Shown: piece by piece, positions 31,656-63,618 of the stretch | Numbering within the stretch: the stretch's first letter is position 1 | Layout: every line of letters begins with the position of its first letter | Source of the DNA: Mesorhizobium sp. M3A.F.Ca.ET.080.04.2.1 | Lineage (GTDB): Bacteria > Pseudomonadota > Alphaproteobacteria > Rhizobiales > Rhizobiaceae | NCBI RefSeq assembly: GCF_003952525.1 | Contig: NZ_CP034451.1 | Coordinates: 4,154,001-4,218,000 of the forward strand | Reading direction: 5' to 3' | DNA length: 64,000 nucleotides | Made by a program: the position numbers and the translations under genes | Notes under the pieces: generated by a model | Told to the model about the DNA's origin: nothing | The model's input: only the letters and a program-made list of their open reading frames with translations | Database searches by the model: none

Positions 31656-32813
31656 ATGAGGACCGGCCTCACCACATCGGTCATCTTGCATGCGACGGCG
31701 ATCGCCTTCGGGCTGTTCACGTTGTCCACGCCGCCGGCCATGCCCGCCGCCGACGTTGAGTCGGTGGCGGTCGACATCGTGCCGATGGAAGCTGTCGCGC
31801 AGTCGCTGCAAGGCGACAAGAAAGCGGTCATGCATGACAAGCCGGCGCCGCTGCCGACGAAGCGTCCGGATATCGTTCCCGATGCCCAGAAGGTCGGCGA
31901 GAACAGCGTCGACACCGACAAGCCGGTGACGGACGAGGCGAAGCCGAAGCCGGTCGAGAAGACTTCGGCGCCGCCGCCGGCGCCGACGCCGAAAGAGAAG
32001 CAGGCTGCCGAGGACGTGCCGAAGCCGCAGGAAAAGCCGAAGCCGGTGCCGGCCACCGAAGTGGCGCCGACGCCTGCGCCGAAGGAAGAGGTCAAGCCCG
32101 AGCCGGTCAAGCAGACGGATCCCAAGCCGGCGCCGGCCAAGGAGCCGACGCCCGCGCCGACAAAGGACACGACCGCAGCCATCCAGCCGAAGGAAGAGGT
32201 CAAGCCGGACGCTGTGGCCGAGGCGATCGCCAAGCAACAGCCGACCGAGGAGGCGAAGCTTCCGGATTCGGCGCCGGCGCCGGCGGCGCGGCCGAAGCCG
32301 CAGCCTGCTCCGGCCGCGAGCGCCAAGGCGCCGGACCGCAAGGATGCCGAAAAGCCGGTCAAGGAAGCCTCGTCCAAGCCGAAGTCGGATGAGAAGCAGT
32401 TCAATGCCGATGAGATCTCGGCGCTGCTCGACAAGCAGAAGCCGTCAGGCGGTGGCGCCAAGCGCTCGACCCAGCAGTCGTCGCTCGGCGGTGAAAAGGA
32501 CCAGGGCCAGAAGCTGTCGAAGTCTGAGCAGGGGGCGCTGGAAAATCAGCTTGGAGGCTGCTGGACCTTGCCTGTCGGGCTGGAAGGTTCAGAGAATTTC
32601 GTCGTGGTGGTCCGGTTCAATCTCGACACCAACGGCAAGCTCGACGGCCGCCCGTCGGTCGAGCAGTCGAGCGGCAATCGGCAATTCGACGAAAGCGCGG
32701 TGCGCGCGGTGCAGAAATGCGACGTGGCCGGCCTGCAGGTTCCCGCCGGCAAGCAGGACATCTGGAACGACATCCGGGTCACGTTCGATCCACGGGAGAT
32801 GCTCGGCCTGTAG
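31656..32813 (+). CDS. tolA: Tol-Pal system protein TolA
   Basis: A 385-residue protein with an N-terminal membrane anchor (T-S-V-I-L-H-A-T-A-I-A-F-G-L-F), a long Pro/Lys/Glu/Ala-rich spacer (about residues 55-260) and a C-terminal globular domain with two Cys (G-G-C-W-T-L-P and Q-K-C-D-V-A-G-L-Q), the typical TolA domain III in alphaproteobacteria. It spans the periplasm to contact TolB and Pal. The long spacer has repeated P-K-P-x-P motifs and is likely an extended rod rather than the Ala-rich helix of E. coli. Confidence 0.93.
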   Translation: MRTGLTTSVILHATAIAFGLFTLSTPPAMPAADVESVAVDIVPMEAVAQSLQGDKKAVMHDKPAPLPTKRPDIVPDAQKVGENSVDTDKPVTDEAKPKPVEKTSAPPPAPTPKEKQAAEDVPKPQEKPKPVPATEVAPTPAPKEEVKPEPVKQTDPKPAPAKEPTPAPTKDTTAAIQPKEEVKPDAVAEAIAKQQPTEEAKLPDSAPAPAARPKPQPAPAASAKAPDRKDAEKPVKEASSKPKSDEKQFNADEISALLDKQKPSGGGAKRSTQQSSLGGEKDQGQKLSKSEQGALENQLGGCWTLPVGLEGSENFVVVVRFNLDTNGKLDGRPSVEQSSGNRQFDESAVRAVQKCDVAGLQVPAGKQDIWNDIRVTFDPREMLGL

Positions 32814-32853
32814 GGCCGGCGTCCAAACCATCTAAGAAGAGAAGCGAGAAGAC

Positions 32854-34164
32854 ATGAGATCTTTCCTCAAGCCGCTCCTGACGATTGCAGCCATGGCGCT
32901 GGGCATGACGGCAGGCGCCACACTGCCGGCCTGGGCCCTCGTCGAGCTCAACGTCAACAAGGGCAATGTCGAGCCGCTGCCGATCGCGATCACGGACTTC
33001 CAGTCCAACGATGCGCTGGGCGCCCAGATCACGCAGATCGTGACGGCCGACCTGAAACGCTCCGGCCTGTTCGCCCCGATCGACAAAAGCGCCTTCATCG
33101 AAAAGATCTCGGGCCCGGACGCCACGCCGCGCTTCGAGGACTGGAAGGTGATCAACGCACAGGCGCTGGTCACCGGCAGCGTCGGCAAGGAAGCCGACGG
33201 CCGCATCCGCGCCCAGTACCGGCTGTGGGACACGTTCGCCGGCCAGCAGATGGCGGGCGAGCAGTTTTTCGCCAATGACGCCAACACCAGGCGCGTCGCC
33301 CACATCATTGCCGATGCGATCTATGAGCGGCTGACCGGGGAGAAGGGTTACTTCGACACGCGCGTCGTCTTCGTTGACGAGTCCGGAGCCAAGAACGCGC
33401 GCAAGAAGCGGCTCGCCATCATGGACCAGGACGGCGCCAATGTGCGCTATCTCTCGGACGGCCGCTCGATCGTGCTGACACCGCGCTTCTCGCCGAACCG
33501 GCAGGAAATCACCTACATGTCCTATGAGAGCGGGCAGCCCAAGGTCTATCTGCTGCAGATCGAGACCGGGCAGCGCGAATTGGTCGGCAACTTCCCCGGC
33601 ATGACGTTCGCGCCCCGCTTCTCGCCCGACGGCCAGAAGGTGATCATGAGCCTGCTGCGCGACGATGGCAATTCCAACATCTTCGCCATGGATTTGAGGA
33701 GCCGCTCGACCACGCGGCTCACCAATTCGCCTGCCATCGACACCTCGCCGTCCTATTCTCCCGACGGCAGCAAGATCGTCTTCACCTCGGATCGCGGCGG
33801 CCGCGCGCAGATCTATGTGATGGGCGCCGACGGCTCGGGCCAGACCCGCATTTCCTTCGGTGACGGCGTCTATTCGACGCCGGTATGGTCGCCGCGCGGC
33901 GACCTCATCGCTTTCACCAAGCAGACCGGCGGCGAGTTCCAGATCGGCGTCATGCGCACCGACGGCTCGGGCGAGCGCATCCTTTCCTCCGGCTTCCAGC
34001 AGGAAGGCCCGACCTGGGCGCCGAACGGCCGCGTGTTGATGTTCTTCCGCGACTCCGCCGGCGGTCCGAAACTGGTTTCGGTCGATCTCACCGGCCGCAA
34101 CGAGCAGCCGATACCGACGGCGAACTTCGCCTCGGATCCGGCGTGGTCGCCGTTGCTTGAGTAG
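32854..34164 (+). CDS. tolB: Tol-Pal system beta-propeller protein TolB
   Basis: A 436-residue periplasmic protein: signal peptide ending near P-A-W-A, an N-terminal alpha/beta domain, and a six-bladed propeller recognisable from repeated P-R-F-S-P-D-G-x-x-V and [13 protein letters not shown] motifs. It binds Pal and TolA. Its TAG stop at 34162-34164 is directly followed by the left octamer array of the four-helix-bundle cassette, so tolB and pal are no longer adjacent. Confidence 0.97.
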
Positions 34165-34204
34165 GAACTGAAGAACTGAGGAACTGAGGAACTGAGGAAC
34201 TGAG
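34165..34204 (+). repeat. octamer tandem array, left (GAACTGAG x5)
   Basis: Five head-to-tail 8-base units: GAACTGAA then four GAACTGAG, starting at the base after the tolB stop codon. A sixth degenerate unit (GAATGG) supplies the ATG of the following gene. The GAGGA formed at each unit junction is a ribosome-binding site; the one at 34194-34198 is 8 bases before the ATG. Confidence 0.95.
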
Positions 34205-34206
34205 GA

Positions 34207-34581
34207 ATGGAGAAGCCAGGGCGCTTCGTTGAGCGCGCGAGAGACCTGGGAGTCTACCAGCGCGCCTATGCAGTTTCTCTCGAGATGCACCCCACCCTTG
34301 GTTTTCCGAAAATTGAGCAATACGCGCTGGCCGATCAATTGCGCCGCTCGAGTAAAGCGATTTGCGCCAATCTGGCCGAGGGATTTGCCAAGCAGAGCCA
34401 CTCCAAAGCCGAATTTGCTCGTTTCGTTTCGATGGCGATCGGCTCGTGCAGCGAAGTGGAGACCTGGATATCCTACGCGTTCGACCTTGAGTACATCACA
34501 CCGGACCAACTCGATGCGTGGCGGCAGTCTTACGCCCTCGTTCATGGGATGCTTGTGAACTTGAGGGAAAAGCTGACGTAA
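34207..34581 (+). CDS. four-helix bundle protein (TIGR02436, 23S rRNA IVP-like)
   Basis: A 124-residue protein of the four-helix-bundle family first found in 23S rRNA intervening sequences. The hallmarks are present: D-L-G-V-Y-Q-R-A-Y in helix 1, L-A-D-Q-L-R-R-S-S-K-A-I-C-A-N-L-A-E-G-F near residues 40-59, and F-V-S-M-A-I-G-S-C-S-E-V-E-T-W in helix 3. Function is unknown; related proteins serve as accessory (bAvd) factors of diversity-generating retroelements, but no reverse transcriptase is present. It is inserted between tolB and pal, framed by inverted octamer arrays, and its GC content is lower than its neighbours. This suggests a mobile or recently acquired cassette. Confidence 0.9.
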   Translation: MEKPGRFVERARDLGVYQRAYAVSLEMHPTLGFPKIEQYALADQLRRSSKAICANLAEGFAKQSHSKAEFARFVSMAIGSCSEVETWISYAFDLEYITPDQLDAWRQSYALVHGMLVNLREKLT

Positions 34582-34589
34582 TTTTTTCC

Positions 34590-34645
34590 CTCAGTTCCTC
34601 AGTTCCTCAGTTCCTCAGTTCCTCAATTCTTCAGTTCTTCAATTC
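34590..34645 (+). repeat. octamer tandem array, right (CTCAGTTC x4 plus 3 degenerate)
   Basis: Seven head-to-tail 8-base units, four perfect CTCAGTTC then CTCAATTC, TTCAGTTC and TTCAATTC, starting 8 bases after the four-helix-bundle stop codon. The unit is the exact reverse complement of the left array (GAACTGAG). A C-then-T run (CCCCTTTTTT) follows. Confidence 0.95.
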
Positions 34646-34828
34646 CCCCTTTTTTCATGTTTTGGCCGCATTTCCGCCTACGGTCCGCGCGCATCGTGGC
34701 GCCCTCGCGAGAATGGCCGAGGACGGCGGCCTGAAACCAAATATTAACCGTGTTTCTTGAATGCCGGTTAACCCAAACGTGGTTACTGGGTGATCAACGA
34801 AATCACTCGAATGCGAAGGAGAGGCGGC

Positions 34829-35335
34829 ATGGGCCGTATCGCAGCACTTACCAGAAACCCGGCGATGATCGCGCTGGTGGCAGCGCTTGCCATCACCGGT
34901 TGCGCCTCGAAGAAGACGCCCAACAGCGCGGCCGATCTCGGCCTGAACGGCGCCGGCGCCGCCACGCCCGGCTCGGCGCAGGACTTCACCGTCAACATCG
35001 GCGACCGCATCTTCTTCGACACCGACTCCTCGTCGATCCGCGCCGACGCGCAGACCACGCTGTCGCGCCAGGCGCAGTGGCTCAACCAGTACAGGCAGTA
35101 TGCCATCGTCATCGAAGGCCATGCCGACGAGCGCGGCACGCGCGAATACAACCTGGCCCTGGGTGCCCGCCGCGCCGCCGCCACCCGCGACTTCCTGGTC
35201 TCGAAGGGCGTTGCCGCGAACCGCCTCAAGACGATCTCCTACGGTAAGGAGCGTCCGGTCGCGGTCTGCGACGACATCTCCTGCTGGTCGCAGAACCGCC
35301 GCGCCGTCACCACGCTTTCCGGCGCCGGTTCCTGA
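34829..35335 (+). CDS. pal: peptidoglycan-associated lipoprotein Pal
   Basis: A 168-residue outer-membrane lipoprotein. The signal sequence ends in the lipobox L-A-I-T-G-C with the lipidated Cys at residue 25. The OmpA-like domain shows I-F-F-D-T-D-S-S-S-I-R and E-G-H-A-D-E-R-G-T-R-E-Y-N-L-A-L-G-A-R-R-A, which binds peptidoglycan. Two Cys near the C-terminus (V-C-D-D-I-S-C-W) are typical for rhizobial Pal. ATG 34829 is chosen for the AAGGAGAGG site; ATG 34811 is an alternative. A terminator follows. Confidence 0.97.
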   Translation: MGRIAALTRNPAMIALVAALAITGCASKKTPNSAADLGLNGAGAATPGSAQDFTVNIGDRIFFDTDSSSIRADAQTTLSRQAQWLNQYRQYAIVIEGHADERGTREYNLALGARRAAATRDFLVSKGVAANRLKTISYGKERPVAVCDDISCWSQNRRAVTTLSGAGS

Positions 35336-35374
35336 CGCATCGCATCGGCGGCAAAAATACAACATCTCCTCACG

Positions 35375-35400
35375 AAAGGCGGCCTCAGGGCCGCCTTTTT
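35375..35400 (+). terminator. rho-independent terminator after pal
   Basis: AAGGCGGCC-TCAG-GGCCGCCTT followed by T4, 40 bases after the pal stop. Confidence 0.88.
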
Positions 35401-35527
35401 CGCATGCGACAGGCTGAAACAAAATTTGGCCGAAGTCTCGCGTCCTGCTATGAGCGCGACGGCGCTTCCTCCCATTCCGATTTGGAAAGGCGCATCAGGC
35501 CAACAGATTTCACGGCGAGAGACATAA

Positions 35528-36664
35528 ATGCATTTCAGAACGGTCCTGAGCGGCACGCTTGCGCTGCTGCTCGCATCAAGCATCTCAAGCGTCGCCGCCC
35601 CGGCAGGCAGCACCGCGCAATCGCCAGACAGCGGATTCACCTTCCATCTGCCGACACTCGGGATCTTCGGCGACAAGACGAAGCCAGAGCAGGCGCAGGT
35701 CGCGCAGCAGGACGGCGCCGGGGCGACCGGGCTGGAAGATCAGCTTCGCCAGATGAACGGCAAGATCGAGGAACTCAACTTCCAGATCCTCCAAATGCAG
35801 GAGCAGATGCGCAAGCAGCAGGAAGACAACGAGTTCCGCTTCCAGCAGCTCGAGGGCGGCTCCCAAGGCGCTAAACCGACGGGCCAGAAGAAGTCCGAGG
35901 CCGCGCCCCAGAACGGCGATGCGAATGGTGGCGATGCGGGCATGGCTGATGCCGGCGCCGACACCAACGTCGCCGATGCTCCGCCGACGCAGGCTCCGGC
36001 CGCTGCCGGCACGCAGAGCGGCGGCAAGAGCGTCAGCGAGGTCATCGTGGAGTCGCAGACCGGCGATCCGGGCAAGGTGATCACCGGCGCGCCGCCGAAG
36101 ACCTTCGGCACCATTACGGTCGACAAGAACGGCAATGTCGTCAATGCCGAGACCGATCCGCAGGCCAGCGCGCCAGCGGGAGCTCCGGCGGCGACGGCGA
36201 GCGCTCCGACCGCCGAGACGCCGGCCAAGAGCGGCAAGACCAAGTCGGGCGGCACGGTCATGGCTTCTCTGCCCTCGACCAACGACCCGGACGAACTCTA
36301 CCGCAACTCCTACCAGTTCATCCTGTCGGGCGACTATCCGACCGCCGAGCAGGGTTTTCGCGACCATATCTCCCGCTTCCCCAAGGATGCCAAGGCTGCG
36401 GATGCGCATTACTGGCTGGGCGAGTCGCTGCTCGGCCAGCAGAAATACCGCGACGCGGCAGAGGTCTTCCTTGGCGCCAGCAAGGATTATCCGAAGGCCA
36501 AGAAGGCTCCCGACATGCTGCTCAAGCTCGGCGTAGCGCTGGTCGGCCTGAAGCAGAACGACGTGGCCTGCGCCACCTTCAGCGAGATCGGGAAGCGCTA
36601 TCCCGATGTTTCCGGCGCGCTCAAGGAACGCATCAAGCAGGAGAAGGCGCTGGCGTCGTGCTAG
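35528..36664 (+). CDS. cpoB: Tol-Pal system protein CpoB (YbgF)
   Basis: A 378-residue periplasmic protein: a signal peptide (A-L-L-L-A-S-S-I-S-S-V-A-A), a coiled coil at about residues 68-100 (L-R-Q-M-N-G-K-I-E-E-L-N-F-Q-I-L-Q-M), an Ala/Pro/Gly-rich linker, and three TPR-like repeats at the C-terminus (Y-R-N-S-Y-Q-F-I-L-S-G-D-Y-P-T-A, Y-W-L-G-E-S-L-L). CpoB links Tol-Pal to peptidoglycan synthesis during division. It follows pal after a terminator, so it may be transcribed separately. Linker is longer than in E. coli. Confidence 0.94.
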   Translation: MHFRTVLSGTLALLLASSISSVAAPAGSTAQSPDSGFTFHLPTLGIFGDKTKPEQAQVAQQDGAGATGLEDQLRQMNGKIEELNFQILQMQEQMRKQQEDNEFRFQQLEGGSQGAKPTGQKKSEAAPQNGDANGGDAGMADAGADTNVADAPPTQAPAAAGTQSGGKSVSEVIVESQTGDPGKVITGAPPKTFGTITVDKNGNVVNAETDPQASAPAGAPAATASAPTAETPAKSGKTKSGGTVMASLPSTNDPDELYRNSYQFILSGDYPTAEQGFRDHISRFPKDAKAADAHYWLGESLLGQQKYRDAAEVFLGASKDYPKAKKAPDMLLKLGVALVGLKQNDVACATFSEIGKRYPDVSGALKERIKQEKALASC

Positions 36665-36674
36665 CTTTTCTCTC

Positions 36675-36718
36675 GCATGTGGTTGCTCCACAAGCGGGAC
36701 CGTTTCCGCGCGACATGC
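36675..36718. repeat. short palindromic intergenic repeat, type A (copy 4)
   Basis: Starts GCATGTGGTTG and ends GCGCGACATGC, 44 bases, in the 58-base gap between cpoB and tilS. It ends 4 bases before the tilS ATG and so occupies the place of its ribosome-binding site. Confidence 0.65.
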
Positions 36719-36722
36719 AGTA

Positions 36723-38114
36723 ATGCCCGGCACTGAGCCTGAGTTTTCGGGCCGCCTTTTTTCAGATTTCGATTTTTCCAGCGGCGCCGTTGCAGCCGTG
36801 TCCGGCGGCAGCGACTCGACCGCCCTGCTTCTTCTCCTCAAAGACCGCCTCGATCGAGACGCGCCCGCGGCAAGGCTGCTGGCGGTAACCATCGATCATG
36901 CCCTGCGGCCGAATTCGGCAGCGGAAGCGCGCGCCGTGGCGGAACTCTGCGCCGCTCATGGCATCGCGCATCGCACCCTGATCTGGTCCGGACCCAAGCC
37001 GGCGACCGGCCTGCCCGCCGCGGCGCGCGAAGCCCGCTACCGGCTGCTGGCCGAGGCGGCTGAAGGGGAAAGCATCGGCCTGATCCTGACCGGCCATACC
37101 GCCGACGACCAAGCCGAGACCGTGCTGATGCGACAGGCGCGCGACGCCGGAACTCGCGACGGAGACGATGACGGGCGCGGCCTGGCGGGCATGGCGCCTG
37201 CCACGCTCTATGGCTGGCGGACCTGGATCGGAAGGCCGCTGCTCGGCACGCGGCGGGCGGTGCTGCGTCAGTTTCTCAAGCGGCGAAACATCGGCTGGAT
37301 CGAGGATCCGACCAATGTCGACCAGCGTTTCGAGCGCCCGCGGATGCGGGCGGCGCTCTCGGGCGGCGAGGGCGAGGCTCGCTTCGCCGCGGCGATCGCA
37401 GAGGCCGGGCAGGCCGCCGCCGCGCGCGAAGAACTCGGCAGCCGCGCCGCCATTCTGATCGGGGCCTTCGCCAGCCGGCCGGCTTCCGGACTTGTCCGCC
37501 TTGATCCCGCCTTTGCCGCCAGCGAGGACGGCGAGGCCGCGACCTACGCGCTGCGCATCCTGCTCGCCACGATGGGGGGCACATCGTTTCTCGCGGACGA
37601 GGCGCGCTCGCGTCGCCTGTTCGAGAGACTGCGTTCCGGTTCGCTTTGCGCCACATTGTCGCGGAGCGTGGTGGATGCGCGTCGAAGCGGCATCTTTCTC
37701 CACCGCGAGAGCCGAAATCTGCCGGCACCCGCTCCGGCCGAGGACCACAACTGCTGGGACGGTCGGCGGCGGATCACATTGGGCGACAAATCGGACGGGT
37801 TGGTGATCGCCCCGTTGGGAGTGGCCGCCGCCAAACGCGCTTGCGCCGACGAAGCTGCGCCCGCCGGCATAGTGCGCAAGGCGCTTGCCAGCGAACCCGC
37901 GCTGTGGCGCGATGACGAACGCCTTGATTCTGCTGGCGGCGGCGGCTTGCGGCCGCCAATCGCGGCGGCCCCATTGGTGTCGCCGTTCGCACGCTTCCTG
38001 CCGTGCTTCGATTTGCTGCCCGCCGCCGCCGTGGCCCGGCTGATCGGCGCAGCGCAGCCGCCGGCTTCGCCCTTTCGCGGCCATGATCGCGGCCGACCAT
38101 GGTCGAAAGCTTAA
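36723..38114 (+). CDS. tilS: tRNA(Ile)-lysidine synthetase TilS
   Basis: A 463-residue N-type ATP pyrophosphatase that converts C34 of tRNA-Ile(CAU) to lysidine. The P-loop S-G-G-S-D-S is at residues 27-32, and the conserved T-I-D-H-A-L-R and G-H-T-A-D-D-Q-A-E-T-V-L-M-R motifs follow. The C-terminal half is variable, as usual in alphaproteobacteria. ATG 36723 is chosen; a good ribosome-binding site is lacking because a palindromic repeat (36675-36718) sits directly before it. The order cpoB-tilS-ftsH is conserved in Rhizobiales. Confidence 0.95.
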   Translation: MPGTEPEFSGRLFSDFDFSSGAVAAVSGGSDSTALLLLLKDRLDRDAPAARLLAVTIDHALRPNSAAEARAVAELCAAHGIAHRTLIWSGPKPATGLPAAAREARYRLLAEAAEGESIGLILTGHTADDQAETVLMRQARDAGTRDGDDDGRGLAGMAPATLYGWRTWIGRPLLGTRRAVLRQFLKRRNIGWIEDPTNVDQRFERPRMRAALSGGEGEARFAAAIAEAGQAAAAREELGSRAAILIGAFASRPASGLVRLDPAFAASEDGEAATYALRILLATMGGTSFLADEARSRRLFERLRSGSLCATLSRSVVDARRSGIFLHRESRNLPAPAPAEDHNCWDGRRRITLGDKSDGLVIAPLGVAAAKRACADEAAPAGIVRKALASEPALWRDDERLDSAGGGGLRPPIAAAPLVSPFARFLPCFDLLPAAAVARLIGAAQPPASPFRGHDRGRPWSKA

Positions 38115-61224: not shown

Positions 61225-63618
61225 CTACCCGGGGCTGCCGCTGACGGTGTCAAAGCCACCGCCGGTCCCGCTATCAGTGCTGCCGGTCGTGCCGCCGTCG
61301 GTGCCGCCAGTGGTGCCGCCGTCCGTGCCGCCGGTGCTGCCGCCGTCAGTGCCGTCAGTGTTGCCGCCGCCTTCGGAGGGACCTGGGCGGTCGCCGCCAT
61401 TATTGCCACTCCAAGTAGCCCGCCCGGGTTCGTCCTGCACTGGTTTCACCGGTCTGACGACTCTCGGCGGCTTTGGCGCGGGTACGCGGATCACCTTTAT
61501 CTTGGTTATTATTTTCGGCACGATCTTGGGCGTGCACACAGCGAGCGTCTGGAGGTTGCGCCCGCCAGGAGCGAGAGCGCTCGTCGAAAAGTTGCCTTGC
61601 CGCTCGATGCCGGCTCTGAGAAAGGCCATGGCGCGAACCGGATCGGCGGGCATGCCATTGCGGCCTTCCGTGAAGATCACCGCAAGATCGTTCATGGCAT
61701 CGACATGCCCCATCGCCGCCGCCTTGAGCAGCAGGTCCAAGCCCTTGCCGGTATCGCGCTGGACGCCGAGGCCATTGAACAAGGCACGCCCCCAAGCGGC
61801 CATGGCGTAGGGATCTCCCCTGTCGGACGCTTGTGAATAGAAGGTGTTCGCTTTCGCAGGATCCGCCGCCGTCCCGGTGCCGGACGACGCGATATAGCCG
61901 AGCTCGAAGCCGGCGCGGACATGGCCCTTGTCGGCAGCAGCTTGGATGACCTTCCTGGCCTCGTCGACCTTGCTTGCCGCCAGCAGCGCCCGCCCGAGCT
62001 CGTAGCGGAAGCGGGCGACATCGGGGTAGGCCTTCACCGCCGCCTCGCAGGCCTCCACCGCCTGGCCGCCGATCTCATTCGGCAACCGGCCCGGGACGAC
62101 GCCCTGCAGGTCGAGCGGAGCGCCCGCCGCCTGATCGCAAGGGTCGATGCTTGGCGACAGCTTCATCGTCGCCTGCTTGGACGATTTGCTGGCGCGGATT
62201 TGGAAGCCGACCTCGACAGGAACTGCCGAGCCGATCTGCGGCTCGTAGCGAAGATCGCCGACTTCCTTGGCCATCAGACTCGATTGAGGCGACAGAATGC
62301 GATCCGGCAGGGACAATGTTCCGGTCGCCGGATAACTCGCAAGCTTCAGGCTGATCGCCGGATCCTTGGTCGGGAAGTCCAGCTTCAATGGAACCGGGCC
62401 AACGCCGACAGGAATCGTGACGTCGCGGTTCTCGATCACCTTGACCGCGCCGGTGATATGGAGGCCGCGCTCCACGACCTGCTCCTTCTGCGAAGCCACG
62501 ATCTGCCGACCCTCGGCGCCGCCGCCGCTCTTGATCCGCAGCACCAGAATGCCCTGGGATTGGCCGCCCCACTCGTCACGTGTGGTATAGGCCAACGTTT
62601 CCACCTGTTCCTGCGCGTCGATCGTCTTGGCCACCTCCATGCGCAGGCGTGGCAGATCCTTGCCCTGTATCGGTTCGGTTACGGCGACAGGTCGGCCGTC
62701 CAATGTCAGGCGCCCGAGCGTCGGAAGCGTTTCAATGCTGACGGTAACTGCGCCGCCGTCGACGTCGACCGGCTGTGGCAAGTCGAGGGCGACCGGGCCG
62801 ACGCCCGACGGCACGACCTTCTCCAGCACCGGCGGCAGCGAGGGCCGGGTCGCCCGGCGCATCAGCACCACGTCGTCGATCAGCGAGGAGTTTTCCCAGG
62901 GAACCTGCTTGCCGTCGGTCGCCCGCACCACATCGCGGCGCACGGCGGCCATGACGGTGCGTATCTCCTGGTTCGGCGCCAGCGCACGGCGGGAAAAGGC
63001 GGATGAAAACGGGCTGAGGCTGCCGGTCCCGTCAAAGGCAACAGCGCCAGGCTCGGTAGCGAAGGCGATCAATGTGTTCTGCGAGCTTTTCACCTGCGCC
63101 AGGCCGGTGCCGCTTGCGGTGATCAACTGGTCGCGCAGCCAATAGTCCTTGCGTGGGAACGGATTGTTGCGGCAGGCATCGAGGATGATCACCTGGATCT
63201 TCGATTTCGAGCGCAATTGCTGCAGCACGTCGTCGAGCTTGATTGCCTGGACCTCGATATCGGCCGCATCCTTCAGGGAGGCATCGACGGGGATAAGAAA
63301 GTTCTCGCCGCCGATCTGAAAGCCATGGCCCGAATAATAGACGACCGCCAGATCGGCGCCGTCCGCCGCGGCCAGATAATTGCGGAACTGTTGTTCGAAC
63401 TGCAGCTTGGTCAAGTCCTTGGCGACGAACACGTCGAAGCCGGCCAGCCGGAACGTGTTCGCCACGTCCTGAGCATCCTTGTCAGGGTTCTTGAGCGCAG
63501 GGATCTCTCGGTATTCTGAATTGCCGATTACAAGGGCAACCCGTCGATCGGCGCGAGCTTCGAACGTCGCGAAACCCACGAGGATCAAGGCTGCAAGGAA
63601 CGCGCAGCATCGCAGCAT
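61225..63618 (-). CDS. caspase-like (peptidase C14) protein with Sel1 repeats
   Basis: A 797-residue secreted protein. The signal peptide ends near E-A-R-A-D. The caspase-fold domain (about 25-240) has the catalytic dyad His98 (Y-Y-S-G-H-G-F) and Cys149 (I-L-D-A-C-R-N-N-P-F). A central beta-rich region follows (280-500), then Sel1-type repeats (about 540-690, G-Y-I-A-S-S-G-T-G-T, A-M-A-A-W-G-R-A-L-F). The last 55 residues are a low-complexity G-G-T-D-G-G-T-T tail. Similar metacaspase-like proteins are common in rhizobia with unknown substrates. It is convergent with the M48 gene. Confidence 0.9.
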   Translation of the reverse strand: MLRCCAFLAALILVGFATFEARADRRVALVIGNSEYREIPALKNPDKDAQDVANTFRLAGFDVFVAKDLTKLQFEQQFRNYLAAADGADLAVVYYSGHGFQIGGENFLIPVDASLKDAADIEVQAIKLDDVLQQLRSKSKIQVIILDACRNNPFPRKDYWLRDQLITASGTGLAQVKSSQNTLIAFATEPGAVAFDGTGSLSPFSSAFSRRALAPNQEIRTVMAAVRRDVVRATDGKQVPWENSSLIDDVVLMRRATRPSLPPVLEKVVPSGVGPVALDLPQPVDVDGGAVTVSIETLPTLGRLTLDGRPVAVTEPIQGKDLPRLRMEVAKTIDAQEQVETLAYTTRDEWGGQSQGILVLRIKSGGGAEGRQIVASQKEQVVERGLHITGAVKVIENRDVTIPVGVGPVPLKLDFPTKDPAISLKLASYPATGTLSLPDRILSPQSSLMAKEVGDLRYEPQIGSAVPVEVGFQIRASKSSKQATMKLSPSIDPCDQAAGAPLDLQGVVPGRLPNEIGGQAVEACEAAVKAYPDVARFRYELGRALLAASKVDEARKVIQAAADKGHVRAGFELGYIASSGTGTAADPAKANTFYSQASDRGDPYAMAAWGRALFNGLGVQRDTGKGLDLLLKAAAMGHVDAMNDLAVIFTEGRNGMPADPVRAMAFLRAGIERQGNFSTSALAPGGRNLQTLAVCTPKIVPKIITKIKVIRVPAPKPPRVVRPVKPVQDEPGRATWSGNNGGDRPGPSEGGGNTDGTDGGSTGGTDGGTTGGTDGGTTGSTDSGTGGGFDTVSGSPG

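Follow-up and report, generated by a model that had tools for sequence, protein, structure and literature searches.

A four-helix-bundle gene framed by inverted octamer arrays between tolB and pal, and its intervening-sequence-type relatives in bacteria

RESULTS

Anatomy of the element between tolB and pal

The window, the whole stretch of 64,000 nucleotides that was analyzed, belongs to a source genome of 6.17 Mb, whose closest named protein matches are from Mesorhizobium, and carries a four-helix-bundle gene with an octamer array on either side between tolB and pal (Table 1). The right-arm units were, in order, four exact copies of CTCAGTTC followed by CTCAATTC, TTCAGTTC, and TTCAATTC, beginning 8 nt behind the stop codon of the gene. 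An earlier note on this DNA had placed five units directly after the tolB stop, and the start codon within a degenerate sixth unit with GAGGA at 8-nt spacing; the sequence bore out both points. Its description of the right-arm units as exact reverse complements held for four of the seven, the other three being variants. TRF scored the two arrays at 83 and 88, and the pattern GAAYTGRRGAAYTGRRGAAYTG had 15 matches in the source genome, as against 0 for the backwards control.

Table 1. Features at the tolB-pal junction (positions in the window)
Feature	Position	Strand	Basis or remark
tolB	32854..34164	+	TAG stop 34162-34164, directly abutting the left arm
Left arm, five 8-mers: GAACTGAA then four of GAACTGAG	34165..34204	+	Sequence, TRF, arm alignment, genome pattern search
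GAGGA within the left array, 8 nt 5' of the ATG, possible ribosome-binding site	34194..34198	+	Sequence
Degenerate sixth unit GAATGGAG, containing the start codon (ATG at 34207)	34205..34212	+	Sequence
Four-helix-bundle gene, 23S rRNA intervening-sequence protein family (IVP/S23p), 124 aa	34207..34581	+	PF05635, TIGR02436
Right arm, seven 8-mers, reverse complement of the left arm (four exact, three variant)	34590..34645	+	Sequence, TRF, alignment, fold
pal, downstream of the element	34829..35335	+	Open frame 34790-35335; ATG 34829 taken as landmark

Alignment of the two arms gave 42 columns with one mismatch, and in the predicted RNA fold the arms paired as one long stem around the gene (z = -10.0), so that by both alignment and predicted fold the element has the long terminal inverted repeat typical of rRNA intervening sequences (IVSs). 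The pairing of the mRNA ends over 40 bases that had been proposed earlier is thus predicted, but selection on a sense-RNA stem was not seen, since G.U mismatches did not exceed A.C mismatches (see below). No sigma-70 promoter or ordinary short terminator was found in 34100-34900. There was no Rfam match to a known RNA family in 32000-37000, which places the element outside a 23S rRNA helix and between tolB and pal.

Profile searches with the encoded protein (IVP) returned PF05635 at 98.8 bits and TIGR02436 at 93.1 bits, confirming the four-helix-bundle identity (TIGR02436) given in the earlier note. Pfam had no match beyond PF05635, and NCBIfam had two PRK12275-type models below the cut-off. 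The solved relatives in the PDB are 2gsc (XCC0516 of Xanthomonas campestris) and 2rld, and the X. campestris S23p is described as a homopentamer (PMC4990558). No transposase, HUH-type/Y1, or other catalytic domain was matched in the IVP by Pfam or NCBIfam, and the window element held no transposase, polymerase, or other enzyme. The source genome has two IVP genes. No reverse transcriptase stands beside the IVP gene, whose neighbors are tolB and pal; the single RVT_1 match of the source genome is at 1,290,568, approximately 2.9 Mb from the window element at 4,188,252. That match (1290568-1291008, minus strand) falls in a 630-aa open frame that is unlinked to the IVP genes.

Inverted arms around IVP genes across bacteria

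To score arms, the 350 nt before a gene were aligned with the reverse complement of the 400 nt behind it, with a threshold of 16. The 167 IVP loci comprised 62 from relatives, the best 80 of 458 relatives in a contig scan, and 25 from 299 phylum genomes, with at least two places counted twice (L001/L062 and L047/L065). An IVP match was present in 32 of the 61 relatives, source genome included; 29 of these were among the 37 genus genomes and 3 among the 24 others.

Scores of at least 16 were obtained for 122 of the 167 IVP loci versus 5 of 441 control genes taken from these loci. By subset, these were 56 of 62 loci from relatives, 51 of 80 from the contig scan (the best 80 of 458), and 15 of 25 from the phylum genomes. 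The maximum score in same-locus control regions at least 650 nt away (n = 153) was 14.0. When all loci were taken together, genus included, own arms scored at least 20 in 84 of 167 cases and swapped arms in 40 of 996 draws. The best repeat period among the 122 loci was 7 in 46, 14 in 31, 8 in 31, 15-16 in 11, and another value in 3, and these loci came from Pseudomonadota, Bacillota, Bacteroidota, Chloroflexota, Acidobacteriota, Nitrospirota, Planctomycetota, Cyanobacteriota, and candidate phyla. The remaining 45 loci scored below 16; when ten of them were inspected by eye, L155 and L148 had array-like words on both sides and most others on one side. Twenty further regions included 19 with an IVP gene, of which 10 scored at least 16 and 9 scored below, and one that had been chosen for its array.

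Within the genus, IVP genes were flanked by inverted arrays made mostly of other units, namely GGCAGTA, GCGAATA, GTGAATG, GTAGTGA, and the 8-mers GGGGAGTA and GGGCAGTA. The expectation of the earlier note that GAACTGAG-type arrays would frame IVP genes at unrelated loci was therefore rejected, as different 7- and 8-mers were found there. Inverted arrays of degenerate 7- to 8-mers are the general build of most sampled IVP genes in many phyla, both inside and outside 23S rRNA, and the repeat unit is not the same at every place, although the left and right arms of any given element match each other.

Relation to the intervening sequences of 23S rRNA

Twenty loci, chosen for score and diversity and not at random, were scanned with Rfam, and ten of them lay inside bacterial 23S rRNA (L068, L070, L072, L076-L080, L090, and L091). 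The arm score was at least 16 in all ten of these and in seven of the other ten. Since like arms frame IVP genes in 23S rRNA, the window element looks like an rRNA "intervening sequence" in a protein operon. The rRNA IVSs have been known for decades, and one account of them describes the function of IVP/S23p and the mode of spreading as unexplained (PMC4990558); an IVP has also been described in the rRNA insertions of CPR bacteria (PMC11270868). According to the same account, the Coxiella IVS carries GACAGAT heptamers in two or three copies, has a terminal stem of 28 bp, and is cut by RNase III (PMC4990558).

The window element shares with the 23S rRNA IVSs of Coxiella, Leptospira, and others the protein family and a terminal inverted repeat able to form a long stem, and with the Coxiella IVS also the tandem repeat words, there heptamers, before the start codon (PMC4990558). 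It differs in standing between protein genes, in having 8-mer arms, in having gene-less relatives in its own genome, and in units that turn over between species. One test heptamer pattern had 0 matches in two genomes that host rRNA IVSs (G440 and G441).

Gene-less hairpins and array load

The pattern NSARTRG x3 had 144 matches in the source genome, of which the 100 listed fall in about 21 loci, and 0 in the backwards control. In 20 array regions examined by script, 10 were gene-less inverted pairs with at least three units per arm and arms 16-121 nt apart; in the other 10 one side only passed, some having a weaker partner by eye. The source genome thus contains dispersed short inverted repeats of the kind seen in REPIN/RAYT systems. 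Two gene-less octamer pairs (at 3,530,361 and 4,453,116) carried the unit of the window element. Many arrays stood at the 3' ends of open frames; since the 7-mers of such arrays close all frames, frame ends alone are no proof of natural stops.

The heptamer pattern was found in 36 of 37 genus genomes and in 3 of 24 others, the backwards control giving 10 matches across all 61. Genus genomes with an IVP had a median of 58 heptamer matches versus 13 in those without (P = 3e-4, relatedness not controlled), and outside the genus the two-by-two count of arrays and IVP was 2, 1, 1, and 20 (P = 0.03). No IVP was detected in 8 of the 37 genus genomes, and six of these eight still had more than one array match, which indicates that arrays persist without IVP. 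Octamer load, examined by eye, was not tied to the tolB-pal IVP: two genomes (G011 and G016) had that IVP and zero octamer matches, and a third (G017) had 42 octamer matches and no tolB-pal IVP among the relatives searched.

Eleven genomes that carry IVP loci of other groups were also searched with one heptamer pattern, which had matches in nine, with 243 in Desmonostoc (control, 9), 57 in a Chloroflexi bin (0), 39 in an Acidobacteria bin (10), 27 in Planctomycetales (0), and 13 or fewer in each of the remaining genomes. GGGAATC x3, searched in the 299 phylum genomes, was present in three (G178, G209, and G338), of which G209 and G338 had an IVP match and G178 did not. The IVP of G338 was flanked by accB and accC and enclosed by GGGATTC-type arms (score, 21.5). 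That of G209, apparently broken, followed accB and had GGGAATC as the unit of its left arm (score, 24.0); the gene names are our reading of the flanks. These two elements tie the Xanthomonas-type heptamers, as described in PMC4692102, to IVP. A GGGAATC array of more than 600 nt was also seen in G338 (contig C1, at approximately 326.9 kb), where the IVP element is built of a similar unit.

Occupied and empty sites, IVP tree, and unit turnover

The 72 IVP loci that were assigned to sites (70 of the genus plus L152 and L156 of a neighboring genus, one place being counted twice) fell into only five sites, named here from a reading of the flanks: tolB-pal (20), nuoC-nuoD (16), a glutamine-synthetase-like/oxidoreductase junction (15), an acyl-CoA dehydrogenase/hydroxyisobutyrate dehydrogenase junction (14), and a fifth site (7). 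At all five junctions the genus elements stand behind the upstream gene.

The TolB protein was found in 119 of 119 genus genomes and the tolB-pal junction in 90 of these, where it was filled in 28 (526-819 nt, some broken), short in 61, and not parsed in 1. By eye, 39 of the short junctions were array-free and 22 had arrays but no intact gene; gene pieces remained in at least three of these 22. The two nearest relatives by TolB (98%) had tolB-pal arrays and lacked the IVP gene. Empty tolB-pal sites in relatives, for which the earlier note had proposed a search, exist as the 39 array-free junctions. In array-free junctions such as L171 and L215, a terminator-like hairpin (GGGGCCGTTTCGGCCCC then T) was seen by eye at the place of the element, and in other species this hairpin may have been displaced by the element or by its gene-less counterpart.

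The nuoC-nuoD junction was recovered in 30 of 58 genomes with a match and was empty in 17 (-1 to 9 nt), held an IVP in 12 (453-478 nt), and held another open reading frame in 1. The last (G007) had 372 nt with short GGCAGTAG-like words, an unrelated small secreted-protein-like open reading frame, and no IVP. Empty and filled junctions had edges that coincided to a few bases; by eye, no more than 2-3 bases could be shared, and this comparison revealed no clear target-site duplication and no fixed length of one.

In a tree built from 58 IVP rows and 108 columns, in which many forks were weak, the tolB-pal IVPs formed one clade apart (100/100), indicating that the tolB-pal copy is inherited and has not recently moved. 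The nuoC-nuoD IVPs were not one clade and showed four label changes, two of them forced; two independent occupations of nuoC-nuoD were considered as forced and dropped, as the two changes could be one gain and one loss. L157, a nuoC-nuoD locus, grouped with the IVPs of the fifth site (97/95) and carried their unit GCGAATA, a pattern that we read as joint movement of gene and arms in either direction. The tree thus implies that an element changed site at least once between nuoC-nuoD and another junction, in either direction. IVPs formed one side of a tree branch at three of the five sites and, at a fourth, did so with the exception of L157, consistent with movement being rare. Taken together, the mobile cassette proposed in the earlier note survives in part: a discrete cassette is apparent from the filled tolB-pal junctions (28 of 89 parsed, with 39 array-free), the clean empty nuoC-nuoD sites, and the site change in the tree, but the tolB-pal copy itself is old, vertically inherited, and often decayed.

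When 13 array sites of the source genome were followed in six other genomes (50 loci), most of the places found were filled, often with other units that were the same in both arms; four of the sites (L296, L298, L300, and L303) also had array-free alternatives. One orthologous site had 7-mers in the source genome and 8-mers in two others. Conserved sites can therefore hold hairpins of different units in different species, with both arms changed together. In G404, the orthologue of L296 had another palindromic repeat, two near-copies around ACCATGATC...GGGATCATGGTC, where other species have a heptamer hairpin.

Matching of the two arms

For the 90 loci outside the genus, the mean left-arm score was 17.7 with the own right arm and 9.5 with swapped arms; scores of at least 16 were reached by 53 of 90 own pairs versus 160 of 8,010 swapped pairs, and the own right arm was the best partner in 45 of 90. 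Own arms also fitted better across the 28 filled tolB-pal junctions (696 versus 638.7 for swapped arms; standard deviation, 15.3; phylogeny not controlled). Selection for pairing of the sense-strand RNA would predict more G.U than A.C mismatches. Such an excess was not seen, the counts being 49 versus 50 in 54 non-genus loci and 29 versus 63 at tolB-pal, and from this strand symmetry we infer that the arms are copied at the DNA level.

Unit spectra were compared over 36 elements, or over 25 elements from six genomes once the source genome was left out. With all 36, the similarity was 0.469 for own arms, 0.392 for the same genome at another site, 0.162 for the same site in another genome, and 0.169 for neither; without the source genome, the corresponding values were 0.442, 0.241, 0.265, and 0.256. 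Genome-wide homogenization of units was therefore rejected as a general law, as it rests on the source genome versus six others. Arm matching is robust, and since same-genome pairs (0.241) did not exceed same-site pairs (0.265) without the source genome, the spread of one unit through a genome is clear only there.

DISCUSSION

The tolB-pal element belongs to a broad group of IVS-type hairpins; it is old and often decayed, and is not a recent octamer-specific cassette. We consider it probable that it is a small IVS-type hairpin element in a protein operon, with arms matched by DNA-level copying and an IVP that likely helps in rare movement. Insertion behind a stop codon would be tolerated because the arms close every reading frame and the stem could be processed, presumably by RNase III as in the rRNA IVSs. 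The arms might be recopied from each other at the DNA level, by template switching or repair between arms, and also from other elements, by conversion between elements. The IVP, as a relative of the retroelement factor Avd, would be a likely helper of rare movement, and the gene-less hairpins could be nonautonomous or decayed relatives.

Several known systems resemble this arrangement in part. REPIN/RAYT systems combine dispersed short inverted repeats with a rare gene that may keep them, the RAYT being a Y1 transposase. The first two features are found here too, whereas the IVP has no Y1 domain and the arms are tandem 7- or 8-mers with no fixed REP. Unlike insertion sequences and MITEs, the IVP element contains no transposase or homology to one. 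Diversity-generating retroelements share the four-helix-bundle homology of Avd and PF05635 (PMC10053308) but have a reverse transcriptase, which is not found next to the window IVP gene. Intergenic heptamer arrays have been reported in Xanthomonas (GGGAATC) and Nostoc [GGGGA(C/T)T], with 70-75 convergent inverted heptamer pairs per Xanthomonas genome (PMC4692102), and in Beggiatoaceae (TAACTGA) (PMC4679880). The source genome likewise has many tandem intergenic 7-mers, often as inverted pairs (10 of 20), but the arms of the window element are 8-mers. These two papers treat heptamer arrays as repeats, regulatory sites, or G-quadruplex formers, and term searches of their text returned no mention of a four-helix or intervening-sequence protein. 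In open-licence PMC, no literature linking IVP genes to inverted heptamer arms outside rRNA was found.

Two alternatives concern how the arrays arise or are kept. The arrays may be passive, with slippage, quasi-palindrome correction, and ordinary gene conversion making and matching the arms and the IVP a trapped passenger. Strand-symmetric mismatches (49 versus 50) are what such a DNA process predicts, and the persistence of arrays in genomes with no detected IVP, vertical inheritance at most sites, and the lack of an enzyme in the element all agree with it. Against this, arms frame most IVP genes across phyla and rarely other genes (122 of 167 versus 5 of 441), array load follows IVP presence in the genus, L157 couples a site change with the same unit, and clean empty sites exist, and we regard purely passive arrays as unlikely. 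A pair resembling REPIN/RAYT, in which a vertically kept low-copy gene maintains dispersed short hairpins with IVP in place of the RAYT transposase, is a tentative option. The source genome has two IVP genes and many array loci, its nuoC-nuoD IVP has GTGAATG, the unit of most arrays among the matches listed, and array load correlates with IVP; the IVP, however, has no HUH-type or other catalytic domain, some array-bearing genomes have no IVP, and no movement was caught in the act.

The other two alternatives operate through RNA. In a domesticated switch, base pairing between the arrays of the mRNA would conceal the ribosome-binding site, and the number of units would set the expression level of IVP, tolB, or pal. 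Such a switch would suit the predicted fold with paired arrays (z = -10.0), the GAGGA supplied by the array at a fitting distance, and the terminator-like hairpin seen by eye at the place of the element in some array-free junctions (e.g., L171). It is nevertheless improbable, given that G.U-type mismatches were not favored over A.C-type, that the tolB-pal gene is missing or broken in most genomes examined, and that many hairpins have no gene. Least probable is retro-copying, in which the IVP, in the manner of Avd, would work with a reverse transcriptase from another locus to copy the hairpin RNA into like sites: the homology of PF05635 with Avd (PMC10053308) and the one RVT_1 protein of the source genome would allow it, but the gene for that protein has no linkage to the IVP genes and the arm mismatches have no strand bias.

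The reading of the window element as an IVS-type hairpin with DNA-copied arms can be extended, tentatively and with considerable doubt, to a bacteria-wide class of small selfish elements. Such elements would combine an Avd-like protein with partner hairpins built from short tandem words; these words would be rewritten in both arms simultaneously, driven by the IVP, and could spread through a genome. In this view, rRNA IVSs would be the rRNA-borne branch, and the heptamer arrays of cyanobacteria, xanthomonads, and others would be gene-less hairpins. The same design with a varying repeat word around the IVP family in many bacteria points to a little-noticed kind of small mobile element. The literature on the intergenic heptamer arrays of cyanobacteria and xanthomonads, as represented by the papers cited above, gives no account of their origin. 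Bringing these arrays together with the rRNA IVSs makes it possible to test which protein copies the arms, how the two change in step, and whether the hairpins are parasites or useful 3' ends.

Eighteen IVP genes have been reported in cas loci (PMC3936711), and these may be further landing sites of the same elements. Elsewhere in the window, positions 61268-61369 hold a tandem repeat of 12/24/48 bases that is rich in GCCGCC and probably coding.
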